Below, piece after piece: positions 56,338 through 60,058 of a stretch of DNA of 60,058 nucleotides. The first letter of the stretch is position 1. Every line of letters begins with the position of its first letter. The notes below the pieces were generated by a model. That model was not told the origin of the DNA. It worked only from the letters and a program-made list of their open reading frames with translations, and searched no databases. Origin of the DNA: Bullifex porci (GTDB lineage: Bacteria; Spirochaetota; Spirochaetia; Sphaerochaetales; Sphaerochaetaceae); the NCBI RefSeq assembly GCF_009695635.1, contig NZ_VUNN01000014.1, positions 1 through 60,058 on the forward strand. Direction: 5' to 3'. Made by a program: the position numbers and the translations under genes.

Positions 56338-56467
56338 GAAAAAATCATATACTACAAGAAAAAAAACTTAATCAAGTAGTTTAAATAATTTTTTTTAAAA
56401 TTTTAAATGTATCTATCATAACAAGATAAAAGATTTTTTTATAATATAAAAATTTATTTTAAATCAA

Positions 56468-56506
56468 TCGAGTAGGTAGGCCCCGTTGGGGCTTTCCTCT
56501 CACACC
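56468..56506 (-). other. 3' end of a group II intron-like RNA, cut off by the RIT element
   Basis: Read on the minus strand the stretch is GGTGTGAGAGG, a short hairpin GCCCC-AAC-GGGGC, then CTACCTACTCGAT. This combination is familiar from the 3' ends (domains V-VI) of bacterial group II introns. The matching 5' part of the hairpin lies on the far side of the RIT element at 59924 onward; joined, ACCGCCGTA pairs with TACGGTGGT. Assignment rests on remembered pattern, not a covariance model. Confidence 0.5.
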
Positions 56507-56580
56507 ACTTATACCGACTTTTGGATTATCCCGAAAAACATCAAAATACCAAGGAATCATTGATATAAATCGGGATAATA
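56507..56580 (+). repeat. Left terminal inverted repeat of the RIT element
   Basis: Begins ACTTATACCGA, continues TTTTGGATTATCCCGAAAAA and ends TCGGGATAAT. Inside the repeat ATTATCCCGA (56525-56534) and TCGGGATAAT (56570-56579) are themselves inverted, 35 bases apart, giving two recombinase-type core sites. Confidence 0.92.
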
Positions 56581-56610
56581 AAACTATATTGGTCTTTGGA
56601 GGACCAATAT

Positions 56611-57831
56611 ATGTTGATAAATAAATTATCAGATAGAGCTATGAAAATAATGGAATCATCAGGCTATACTCAGCTTACTCTCGATTCCATATATTCCTAT
56701 AGCTTTAAACCCATTCTTGACTACTATCTGACTAAAGGCATCGAAAACTATAATCCTGAATTAAACGGACAGATTGAGCCAATGTATTTGGAACAGTTCC
56801 ATAATGGTACTATTTCAAGACACACTTATTATAAAAGATTAAGAGGAATAAGGATACTCAAGGATGTATACGAAACAGGAAATTATATATGGGAGAAATA
56901 TACAGATAAAATATTGGAACCGGAAGAAGAGTTTTCTCTAACCATTTCAGAACATCTTTCAAAAAGAAATATATGTCCAAAGAATCTAAGACTTGAAAAA
57001 ATATATTTAAGTGAATTCTCAAAGTTCTGTTCTAGTAATGGCGTTGACAAACCTGAGGACATAAATGGTGAGATAGTTCTAGGATTCATTAAGTTCAAGG
57101 GTCTTGGTATGACGGTTGGACTGGAAAAAGTCTCAACAGCCTTATCTAAATATTTATTATCGCTGTTTGGAAAAGAAATTATCACACATGATCTTAGTGC
57201 GATAATTAAAATTAAAAGCGGCAGAGAGTTCAAAGTCAAACTACCATTTAATATCGATGTGCTAAACAGGCTCATAGCTTCTATTGATACCGATACAGAA
57301 CTTGGTAAAAGAGATTATGCCATAATCCTTCTTGTTTCCTACACAGGGATAAGGTCTTGCGATATTATTAATCTCAAATTGAATGACATTAGTTGGAAAG
57401 ACAGAAGTATCAGTTTTGTTCAAAATAAAACTGGAATACCACAATCACTTCCTTTAAATAAAGAGGTGTGTGATGCCCTAGCTGATTATATCCTTAATGG
57501 GAGGCCAAAGTGCGGTCATTCATATGTTTTTGTAAGAGAACTGTCGCCATTTAATAGACTTCATGACAGCTGTGCACTAAATTCAATGCTCAGAAGAAGA
57601 CTTAGTGATATAGGAATTGAGCGCAAGCCTGGAGATGGTCTTACTATTCATGGCATAAGAAGAGCGCTTGGAACACAGTTGATAAAATCTTCATCCCCAA
57701 TAAACACTGTAGCTCAGGTTCTTGGTCATCAGTCAACCAGAGCTACAAGACAGTATATATCTGTTGATATAGAAGGATTAAGGATGTGTGCCCTGTCATT
57801 TGATTCAATCGGGCATGGAGTATCTTTATGA
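56611..57831 (+). CDS. ritA: RIT tyrosine recombinase A
   Basis: 406 residues. N-terminal SAM-like DNA-binding part, then the catalytic domain: box I Arg in SYTGIRSCDIINL (near 245), box II HGIRRALGT (His-x-x-Arg near 347), LGHQSTRATRQYI with the third His and the nucleophile Tyr (near 381). The start at 56611 has GGAGG 8 bases upstream; the earlier GTG/ATG frame start lies over that site. Ends overlapping the next gene by ATGA. Confidence 0.9.
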   Translation: MLINKLSDRAMKIMESSGYTQLTLDSIYSYSFKPILDYYLTKGIENYNPELNGQIEPMYLEQFHNGTISRHTYYKRLRGIRILKDVYETGNYIWEKYTDKILEPEEEFSLTISEHLSKRNICPKNLRLEKIYLSEFSKFCSSNGVDKPEDINGEIVLGFIKFKGLGMTVGLEKVSTALSKYLLSLFGKEIITHDLSAIIKIKSGREFKVKLPFNIDVLNRLIASIDTDTELGKRDYAIILLVSYTGIRSCDIINLKLNDISWKDRSISFVQNKTGIPQSLPLNKEVCDALADYILNGRPKCGHSYVFVRELSPFNRLHDSCALNSMLRRRLSDIGIERKPGDGLTIHGIRRALGTQLIKSSSPINTVAQVLGHQSTRATRQYISVDIEGLRMCALSFDSIGHGVSL

Positions 57832-58775
57832 AATACTGTTGGGAATATACGAGCGATTATCTGGAGTACAGAAATGGTATAGGGCTGGATGTGAAAAATC
57901 CTAAATACTTCATCAGCGTTTTTTCCAAATATCTCAAAGAGAATCATCCCGTGGAAACAATTCTCAAAAAAGAAATTACTATGCCATGGTGTATAAGGAA
58001 AGAAAGTGAGAAAAGCTACAGTTACAGAAAAAGAATATCGGAACTCAAGCAATTTACATTCTATCTTTATGGAGTTGGTGCCAGTGATTTTGTTCTTGAT
58101 ACATCTTTTCTCCCTAAAGCAGAAACATACATACCATATATCTTTAATGATGATGAGCTGATTAAACTGTTTAATTATTTCATAAAGAAAAGTGAGGATG
58201 ATCCAGAATCCATCAGTAAAAAAGAACTTTCGATAATCTACAGACTTATATTCTTTCTTGGCTTAAGACCAAATGAAGGAAGAGAGATTAAACTCGAAGA
58301 CATAAACTTTAAGGAAAACTACATACTTATCCGGAAGAATAAAACTCACAAGGAAAGAATAGTAGCTATGTCAGATGATGTTGTGATGATGCTCAAGGAA
58401 TATATGAAATACAGGATTTCCATATATCCTCACAGCGAATATCTGTTTCCCAACAAAAACGGCAACTGTCACGATAGAAAGTGGCTGTCTGATAATTTTC
58501 GGGAAGCGTGGAAATGCACAAAATCAGCTGAAAACAGTGCCAGAGTTCGCGTGTATGATCTCAGACACAGATTCGCAACCACTCTAATGATGAAAATGGC
58601 CGATGAAGGAAAAGACCTTTACAACCTGATTCCTTACATGAGTGCCTATATGGGACATGCACATTTTGATGAAACCATGTACTATATTCATCTGTTGCCA
58701 GATAAACTTACTGATTCCAAATCCATAGACTGGGAAAAGATGAACAACGCCATTCCTGAGGTTAAGAAGATATGA
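57828..58775 (+). CDS. ritB: RIT tyrosine recombinase B
   Basis: 315 residues. Catalytic blocks: FLGLRPNEGREIKL (Arg near 145), YDLRHRFATTL (box II; the first His is Tyr, the Arg is kept), MGHAHFDETMYYIH (His and nucleophile Tyr near 285). The Tyr for His change is a natural variation in this class. Coupled to A and C by 4-base overlaps. Confidence 0.9.
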   Translation: MKYCWEYTSDYLEYRNGIGLDVKNPKYFISVFSKYLKENHPVETILKKEITMPWCIRKESEKSYSYRKRISELKQFTFYLYGVGASDFVLDTSFLPKAETYIPYIFNDDELIKLFNYFIKKSEDDPESISKKELSIIYRLIFFLGLRPNEGREIKLEDINFKENYILIRKNKTHKERIVAMSDDVVMMLKEYMKYRISIYPHSEYLFPNKNGNCHDRKWLSDNFREAWKCTKSAENSARVRVYDLRHRFATTLMMKMADEGKDLYNLIPYMSAYMGHAHFDETMYYIHLLPDKLTDSKSIDWEKMNNAIPEVKKI

Positions 58776-59818
58776 AAAAGGAATCTATCATATTCTTCAG
58801 GCTGATTAGGGATTATCTGGATGTATTTCTCATCAATCAGAAAGGCGCAAGTGAACATACAGTAAAATCTTATAAGCAGACATTAAACCAGCTGTTAGAC
58901 TACCTTGCCAAACTGTTTAGTATTAAACTGTCAGAACTTTCTTTCGCCAATATCAGTGTAAAATCAATTGAAGGTTTCCTTGATAATGGCGAAAAGATAT
59001 TAGGATGGAGTGCCAATACAAGAAATCAGAAGCTTGCAGCTGTAAAGTCTTTCCTTAATTATTCAGCCAATCACGATACTACTTTAACTGCATATTATCT
59101 TGAAATAGGAACCATACCTTTAAAACATGTTCAGAAAGGACCAAATATTGATTTCTTTTCAGAAGAGGAACTGGGAATACTATTGAATCAGCCAGATCAG
59201 ACAGATAAAAAAGATATTAGAAATATGACGATGATGGTTCTTATGTATGATACAGGATGTAGAATTCAGGAGCTTCTGGATCTAAGAATAAAGGATATAA
59301 ATATTGATGAGAAATGTCCTTGTGCGACCGTTACCGGCAAAGGAAAGAAGACAAGAATTGTGCCTTTGATGGAAAAAACTGCAGAACATTTAAAGAATTA
59401 TATGTCTCTATACCATCCCGATAATCAAAATGATGATGAACTTCTGTTTTATACAATACACAACGGAGAGAAAACTCCAATGTCACAGGATAATGTTCAA
59501 AAGTTTATTGATAAATACTGTCAGATGGCAATCAATAAAGGGTTTAAAATCCGTAGTCATATCTATTGCCATATATTCAGACATTCAAGAGCCATGCACC
59601 TGTACAGAAATGGAATGGCGCTTCCTTTGGTTTCTGAATGGCTTGGACATGCACAGATTAACACTACCAGAGAGTTCTACGCCAACGCAGATGTTGAAAT
59701 GAAGAGAAAAGCTATCAATGAAGCTACATCGAAAATCAATCCAGTTAAATGTAAAGACTATGACTTTGACTTTGATAATGATGATGAACTTCTAAGAAGG
59801 CTCTATGGCTTAGTATAA
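58772..59818 (+). CDS. ritC: RIT tyrosine recombinase C
   Basis: 348 residues and closest of the three to XerC/D layout: N-terminal core-binding helices (ASEHTVKSYKQTLNQLLDYL), DTGCRIQELLDLRI (Arg near 161), HIFRHSRAMHLY (His and Arg near 267-270), LGHAQINTTREFYANAD (His near 291, nucleophile Tyr near 303). The tail is strongly acidic (DYDFDFDNDDELLRRL). Confidence 0.92.
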   Translation: MKKESIIFFRLIRDYLDVFLINQKGASEHTVKSYKQTLNQLLDYLAKLFSIKLSELSFANISVKSIEGFLDNGEKILGWSANTRNQKLAAVKSFLNYSANHDTTLTAYYLEIGTIPLKHVQKGPNIDFFSEEELGILLNQPDQTDKKDIRNMTMMVLMYDTGCRIQELLDLRIKDINIDEKCPCATVTGKGKKTRIVPLMEKTAEHLKNYMSLYHPDNQNDDELLFYTIHNGEKTPMSQDNVQKFIDKYCQMAINKGFKIRSHIYCHIFRHSRAMHLYRNGMALPLVSEWLGHAQINTTREFYANADVEMKRKAINEATSKINPVKCKDYDFDFDNDDELLRRLYGLV

Positions 59819-59820
59819 AA

Positions 59821-59895
59821 AAATTATCCCGATTTATATCAACATTTTCTTGGAATAATGATATTTTTCGGGATAATCCAAAATTCGGTATAAGT
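59821..59895 (-). repeat. Right terminal inverted repeat of the RIT element
   Basis: Inverted match to 56507-56580: ATTATCCCGA (59823-59832) and TCGGGATAAT (59868-59877) are again 35 bases apart, and the outer end reads TCGGTATAAGT. Confidence 0.92.
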
Positions 59896-59925
59896 TCTGT
59901 TATCCCGAATTCGGGATAACAGAAC
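59894..59925. repeat. 32-bp perfect palindrome outside the right RIT repeat
   Basis: GTTCTGTTATCCCGAA meets its exact reverse complement TTCGGGATAACAGAAC with no spacer. Its core TTATCCCGA/TCGGGATAA is the same motif as in the terminal repeats, but without the 35-base gap. No counterpart exists at the left end. Confidence 0.92.
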
Positions 59926-60058
59926 CGTACGTACCGGTCTGGTATACGGCGGTTCAAATGAATACAAACTCCGACTGAGAGTTGTATGTCCTATCCAATA
60001 GGCGTCTTTCTCTGTGAAGACGCTTATATTCTCCCTCGATATCAACCAAGTTGAATTT
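59924..60058 (-). other. 5' part of the interrupted group II intron-like 3' region (runs off the right edge)
   Basis: Minus strand: GAACCGCCGTATACC, AGACC and GGTACGTACGG form most of a long hairpin whose last strand lies at 56501-56508. Upstream of it (plus 59990-60040) GCGTCTT and AAGACGC can form another stem. A short frame reaching the window edge could be the end of the intron-encoded protein, but too little is visible to name it. Confidence 0.45.

Follow-up and report, generated by a model that had tools for sequence, protein, structure and literature searches.

A RIT element in domain V of a group II intron of Bullifex porci, and a candidate target rule for RIT elements

Background

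When a RIT element lies inside the catalytic domain of a group II intron, has it landed there by chance, or is this a site that such elements recognize? The question is raised by the end of a contig of Bullifex porci (Spirochaetota; Sphaerochaetaceae; assembly GCF_009695635.1, contig NZ_VUNN01000014.1), of which we analysed positions 1 to 60,058, hereafter the window. RIT (Recombinase In Trio) elements have been known for more than ten years. In Cupriavidus metallidurans CH34 and on plasmid pHG1 they consist of three tyrosine recombinase genes that overlap, share one strand and follow the order A-B-C within about 3.5 kb, with terminal inverted repeats, an overlapping palindrome and the RH-Y catalytic pattern; insertions have been reported in a transposase related to Tn6049 and in the radC gene of Tn6054 (PMC3414803). 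The same 2012 paper saw the inverted repeat with its overlapping palindrome and no convincing binding-site logic in it (PMC3414803). In the available text of a further source, the target specificity and movement of RITs are listed as untested, and transposition is said not to have been reproduced in the laboratory for any RIT so far (PMC10214605). A first-pass annotation of the window, made from the sequence alone, had placed a RIT in the 3' hairpin of a group II intron-like element; it treated neither domain V as a repeated site-specific target nor the palindrome as part of an attachment site.

The interrupted intron and its intact copy

When the insert (56507-59923) is removed, the flanks join on the minus strand to read ACCGCCGTATACCAGACCGGTACGTACG|GTGGTGTGAGAGGAAAGCCCCAACGGGGCCTACCTACTCGAT, which corresponds to domains V and VI of a group II intron; outside the RIT they read ...TTTGAACCGCCGTATACCAGACCGGTACGTACGG, ending at 59925, and TGGTGTGAGAGGAAAGCCCCAACGGGGCCTACCTACTCGAT at 56507-56467. 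The RIT thus sits inside domain V of an otherwise continuous intron, of which an uninterrupted sister copy is present in the same genome. This copy opens contig C30 and is identical to the rejoined flanks at 175 of 176 bases, the sole difference being a C/T in the domain V bulge, and its 3' exon context differs from that of the interrupted copy. The Rfam model RF00029 (Intron_gpII) matches the intact C30 copy with 41.5 bits (gathering score 40), and the Rfam group II model also matches copies in four congeneric loci; in the interrupted window it gave no match at the gathering score, and only chance-level matches at a relaxed threshold. Among 15 other genomes of the genus, nine carry related intron 3' ends. 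An alignment of 12 such ends, namely the C30 copy, the rejoined window and 10 ends of congeners, has 99.1% of the domain V and VI pairs formed and two-sided changes in seven pairs; none of 500 shuffles reached its covariation score.

Three features of the intron can be placed on the minus strand of the window. The C-terminus of a group II reverse transcriptase (RT)/maturase, comprising 34 codons and a stop and cut by the contig end, occupies 59954-60058, with its reading frame ending in TGA immediately upstream of domain V. Nucleotides 1-28 of domain V (ACCGCCGTATACCAGACCGGTACGTACG) follow at 59926-59953, as delineated by the C30 copy, Rfam and covariation, and on the far side of the insert the V-VI linker, the domain VI hairpin with its bulged A and the intron 3' end (...CTACTCGAT) lie at 56467-56502, as delineated by Rfam and the alignment. 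The 34-residue RT tail is 100% identical to that of the C30 copy and 59-85% identical to those of congeneric introns, and a full-length relative of this RT is a group II RT/maturase of TIGR04416. Together, the intact paralogue with its Rfam match, the covariation and the RT tail that reaches the contig end bear out the earlier reading of the flanks as a group II intron 3' end. That reading had called for an intron model match of the rejoined flanks, which is provided by RF00029 on the nearly identical C30 copy, and for an RT beyond 60058 on the minus strand, of which the last 34 codons are seen up to the point where the contig ends.

Domains I-IV and the 5' end of the interrupted intron, a region in which its relatives match RF01998, are absent from the assembly, and no RTs were found in the assembly besides the two C4 copies. 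The contig probably stops at 60058 on account of the intron body being a repeat. With bacterial group II introns encoding an LtrA-type RT/maturase (RF00029; relatives RF01998, TIGR04416) the intron shares the two-base bulge of domain V, the bulged A of domain VI, an RT frame ending just before domain V and the presence of more than one copy per genome. Unlike intact introns of this type, the present copy is broken in the 3' strand of domain V, and the assembly lacks its 5' part.

The RIT element and its attachment site

The 3,417-bp insert is a RIT element with the gene order ritA-ritB-ritC, an order that is kept in nearly all related RIT loci. All three genes lie on the plus strand and were delineated as open reading frames: ritA (56596-57831, 411 aa), ritB (57828-58775, 315 aa) and ritC (58772-59818, 348 aa), with 4-bp overlaps at 57828-57831 and 58772-58775. 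Each product is a tyrosine recombinase matching PF00589, and inspection of the sequences together with a motif scan located the catalytic motifs GIRSCDI, HGIRR, LGH and QYI in RitA, LGLRPNE, YDLRH, MGH and YYI in RitB, and GCRIQEL, HIFRH, LGH and FY in RitC, so that the catalytic R, the H-x-x-R of the RH-Y pattern and the Y are present in all three. The size agrees with the approximately 3.5 kb of RITs, as do the terminal inverted repeats and the palindrome at one end. The overlapping PF00589 genes, the inverted repeats and the related loci uphold the first-pass identification as a RIT, whereas its description as rare was overstated, as 24 of 139 genomes of the same family contain a strong RitC-like match. 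The element is present once in its own genome and is absent from all 15 other genomes of the genus examined; scans of genome-contig and viral-contig collections with RitC or RitB, and of viral contigs with the RIT end and palindrome, recovered no close relatives.

The terminal inverted repeats (73 bp, 88%) lie at 56509-56581 (TTATACCGACTTTTGG...; the closest relative, L063, has the same border) and 59821-59893. At the right end the repeat is followed by an inner mirror core GTTCTG that is not exchanged (59894-59899), a 20-bp perfect palindrome TTATCCCGAATTCGGGATAA belonging to the attachment site (59900-59919) and an outer core in the element's version, CAGAAC (59920-59925). GTTCTG-TTATCCCGAATTCGGGATAA-CAGAAC is thus a perfect 32-bp palindrome, with no equivalent at the left end, where the repeat is preceded by the exchange core in the target's version, CACCAC (56503-56508), which on the minus strand constitutes nucleotides 29-34 of domain V. 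The insertion point is accordingly a six-base core inside domain V, GTGGTG in the target and GTTCTG in the element, with four bases matching and two differing. Because the left joint carries the target's six bases and the right joint those of the element, the exchange lies within this core. The first-pass annotation had claimed RIT borders fixed to within two bases; that ambiguity is real, being explained by the two mismatches between CACCAC and CAGAAC, and the border can now be refined to the 6-bp core.

When the right and left ends of the RIT were joined in silico, the result was symmetric: TTCGGTATAA-GTTCTG-TTATCCCGAATTCGGGATAA-CAGAAC-TTATACCGA. Each half of this joint resembles a dif site, with 10-bp arms around 6 bp; such arms are not evident in the intron target. 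The same 6-20-6 arrangement, on one side only, recurs in unrelated RITs, being found at RIT ends from spirochaete-like host relatives (taxonomy inferred), Rhodococcus, Mycobacterium, Cupriavidus, Bacteroides and gut scaffolds. A search of 449 kb, comprising the window and the RIT loci, returned 23 instances with a score of at least 14, nearly all at RIT ends, and the same search of shuffled sequence returned none.

Domain V and group II RT genes as repeated targets

A second RIT, L071, from another genus of the family and with a RitC 34% identical to the present one, is inserted in the same 33-nt domain V of another intron. Directly upstream is a complete group II RT gene (RVT_1 and GIIM), followed by GAGCCGTGTGCGTTAATAGCGCCAGCACGG|RIT|TTCTGGGAGGGG, or in fuller context GAGCCGTGTGCGTTAATAGCGCCA-GCACGG|RIT|TTCTGGGAGGGG, which places the element in the 3' strand of domain V. 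The 6-bp cores of the two insertions are adjacent, five bases apart. Seven plasmid records match the rejoined flanks of L071 continuously across the junction, and in three the annotation names group II intron genes. In the RitC tree the two elements fall in one weakly supported clade (94/80); across the tree there is no clear sorting by target, and IS110 and ArdC targets are mixed within one lineage. Group II RT genes were themselves found split between the same two codons, PQ^GG, in four loci (L091, L116, L126 and L127). L091 and L126 are from Rhodococcus, L127 is from an Agrobacterium vitis plasmid and L116 comes from the same family as the window.

In the host's other intron family (C4, L007), domain V reads CCGGTTCTGTGAGGG and has, at the place of the present insertion, GTTCTG, the RIT's own core. 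Taken alone this match is weak evidence, being expected about once in 16 by chance when the four shared bases are discounted. Contrary to expectation, none of 138 genomes of the family contains the exact 16-mer ACGGTTCTGTGAGAGG, so the case for a domain V specialist rests on the C4 intron (CCGGTTCTGTGAGGG) and L071 (CACGGTTCTGGGAGGGG). On the basis of the RIT's own core at the same place in the host's other intron and of a second RIT in the same domain, the element is probably a domain V specialist that has here used the variant site GTGGTG. The choice of this insertion site is probably not random.

Targets of other RIT elements

To the survey of targets we admitted every RIT locus with a readable junction or palindrome side, with no choice by target. 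All 29 distinct insertions with readable targets lie in motifs that are conserved and in many cases catalytic, within genes of mobile elements or genes associated with them, in a convenience sample where about half of the loci have no readable target (those of L063, L070 and L115 being unread or uncertain) and where "conserved motif" was partly scored by eye. Besides the group II introns, the targets comprise IS110 at PY^VK (L087 and L089, with L130 a second copy), IS3-type transposases at the second acidic motif (L068, L073 and L090) or at W^D (L103), a DDE motif (L069), the ISAs1 motif IENxLHW (L110), IS66 (L106, L119 and L120), the Walker A motif G^KS of IstB (L111), tyrosine recombinases at HxF^RH and at the tyrosine (L109, L085 and L124), YhcG nucleases at ^DLLF (L084, L123 and L125), an ArdC-type metallopeptidase (L088), DUF4314 (L066), DUF3846 (L080), an amidoligase (L081) and a plasmid lysozyme (L083). 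Families were assigned by Pfam or NCBIfam, or by motif alone for L085, L124, L106, L069, L073, L123 and L125.

Different RITs were repeatedly found on identical codons, namely IS110 PY^VK, the IS3 second acidic motif, YhcG ^DLLF and IS66. At motifs hit more than once the palindrome is always on the same side of the target, and the RIT genes run in either direction (15 insertions tabulated), as would follow from a symmetric joint of which the target selects one or the other mirror core. In L068, L081 and L123 the RIT lies between two fragments of the target gene that stand in inverted order, which would fit with the use of both cores. This survey suggests a wider target rule across about 30 relatives, albeit one drawn from a convenience sample of loci.

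A proposed model for RIT integration

We consider likely an explanation that combines the RIT within domain V with a proposed circular form carrying a palindromic double site and with landing in conserved motifs of mobile elements. The three recombinases would release the RIT as a circle, by excision or by copying, and the joint of this circle is predicted to be mirror-symmetric (inverted repeat, core' of 6 bp, 20-bp palindrome, core of 6 bp, inverted repeat), with the palindrome reading CCAAAATTCGGTATAAGTTCTGTTATCCCGAATTCGGGATAACAGAACTTATACCGA. It would amount to two dif-like sites placed head to head, namely TTCGGTATAA-GTTCTG-TTATCCCGAA and its mirror image, and one of the two cores would recombine with a matching 6-bp target. 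The central palindrome would then be left on one side only, with the element's six bases as the adjoining outer core and the target's at the far end. RITs appear to integrate in the best-conserved motifs of other mobile elements, which would give them a target in many hosts. Extending this to the class as a whole, we lean towards the view that RITs are site-specific parasites of other mobile elements, with a palindromic joint of two mirror dif-like sites and cores fitted to the best-conserved motifs of transposases, of recombinases and of group II introns, the last at both domain V and RT PQGG.

Domain V is the catalytic core of group II introns. The insert puts 3.4 kb between the partners of the catalytic triad and splits the helix that bears this triad, on which grounds the interrupted intron should no longer be able to splice or move. 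It is conceivable that the insertion is instead harmless or regulated, with the RIT being precisely excised, of which tyrosine recombinases are capable, or with its long inverted repeats pairing in the RNA so as to hold domain V together and let the intron splice. This seems improbable, given that the 3' partners of the triad bases are separated by the insert and that the two cores differ, such that simple excision could leave a changed core. Moreover, related strand-biased elements do not regenerate empty sites, according to the available text of PMC10214605.

That RIT insertion is essentially random, with elements piling up and this one falling in domain V by chance, would fit with introns being repeated DNA that tolerates insertions and with the agreement of target and element cores at only four of six bases. 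Yet the distant RIT L071 lies in the same domain V five bases off, four more elements lie on one RT codon pair, and a conserved motif was found at every readable target, which leaves chance landing a rather small share of the probability. Least probable of all is an assembly chimera at a repeat, with a contig ending in a multi-copy intron. The assembler did break at this repeat, as the contig ends at 60058 and C30 starts at the complementary base, but the two junctions of the RIT lie inside the contig, each more than 130 bases away from its end. In addition, the flanks complement each other exactly as pieces of a single intron, correctly ordered and oriented, and the 3' exon of C30 is a different one; we therefore rejected this explanation.

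Implications and relationship to known systems

The exact filled site, its empty sister and about 30 aligned junctions provide an attachment-site model for RITs, a predicted circle joint and a testable target rule. If the target rule is true, RITs knock out competing mobile elements by striking their catalytic centres, and make a recombination target of the group II ribozyme core. This would be a form of mobile-element conflict of which we found no description in the openly accessible literature.

With the RITs of CH34 and pHG1 the present element shares its gene organization, size, terminal inverted repeats with overlapping palindrome and RH-Y pattern (PMC3414803); it differs in lying in group II intron domain V, with an exact empty site, the 6-20-6 geometry and a candidate target rule. 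In the available descriptions it can be likened to the strand-biased circularizing integrative elements (SE), GInts and Tn554, which likewise have several tyrosine recombinases, a 6-bp spacer and site-specific targets; SE and Tn554 leave a footprint with the element's six bases at one end and the target's at the other (PMC10214605), as seen here in CAGAAC at the element end and CACCAC at the target end. SE and GInt elements have four conserved proteins, including Tfp/GinC and Srap/GinD, whereas the present RIT has only three genes between its ends, and its palindromic double joint has no counterpart noted in those descriptions of SE, GInt and Tn554. Inteins and homing introns insert where the active-site motifs of widespread genes are most conserved, and RITs appear to work in a like manner. 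Unlike them, the RIT has no endonuclease, splicing or repair of the target gene, and instead uses tyrosine recombination and breaks its target.

RIT arrangements and their genomic contexts

Three of the compared loci (L068, L081 and L123) carry a RIT between two homologous target genes, which are inverted relative to each other, and in L068 and L081 palindromes are found at both sides of the element. This layout is as if both mirror cores, the 6-bp exchange cores on either side of the 20-bp palindrome in the proposed circle joint, had recombined and two targets had thereby been joined.

RIT genes are also present on unverified gut scaffolds labelled 'Bacteriophage sp.', namely L079 (GenBank MT839835), L080 (MT839937), L081 (MT839266), L131 (MT838034) and L132 (MT836929). 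As the L080 scaffold additionally contains an S-adenosylmethionine synthetase gene, at least some of these scaffolds seem to be pieces of bacterial DNA and not phages. Certain contigs (L064, L065, L072, L104 and L112) hold scarcely more than a single RIT (3.2-3.5 kb) and are possibly multicopy or circular forms. L074 has a tandem pair of related RITs, 82% identical and about 3.2 kb apart. On a Cupriavidus taiwanensis plasmid (L128) a RIT sits beside an IS66-type transposase fragment, and 1.5 kb past the element there is an RT gene of a group II intron.

Related and distinct introns

L018, to which the intron in the window is most closely related (92%), contains an in-frame stop in its RT tail. 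A different group II intron occurs on host contig C4 in two identical 1.9-kb stretches spaced about 8.4 kb apart, within the loci C4:15157-18822 (L007) and C4:23585-27250 (L008), each with RF02005 and RF00029; the host genome therefore contains at least two intron families.
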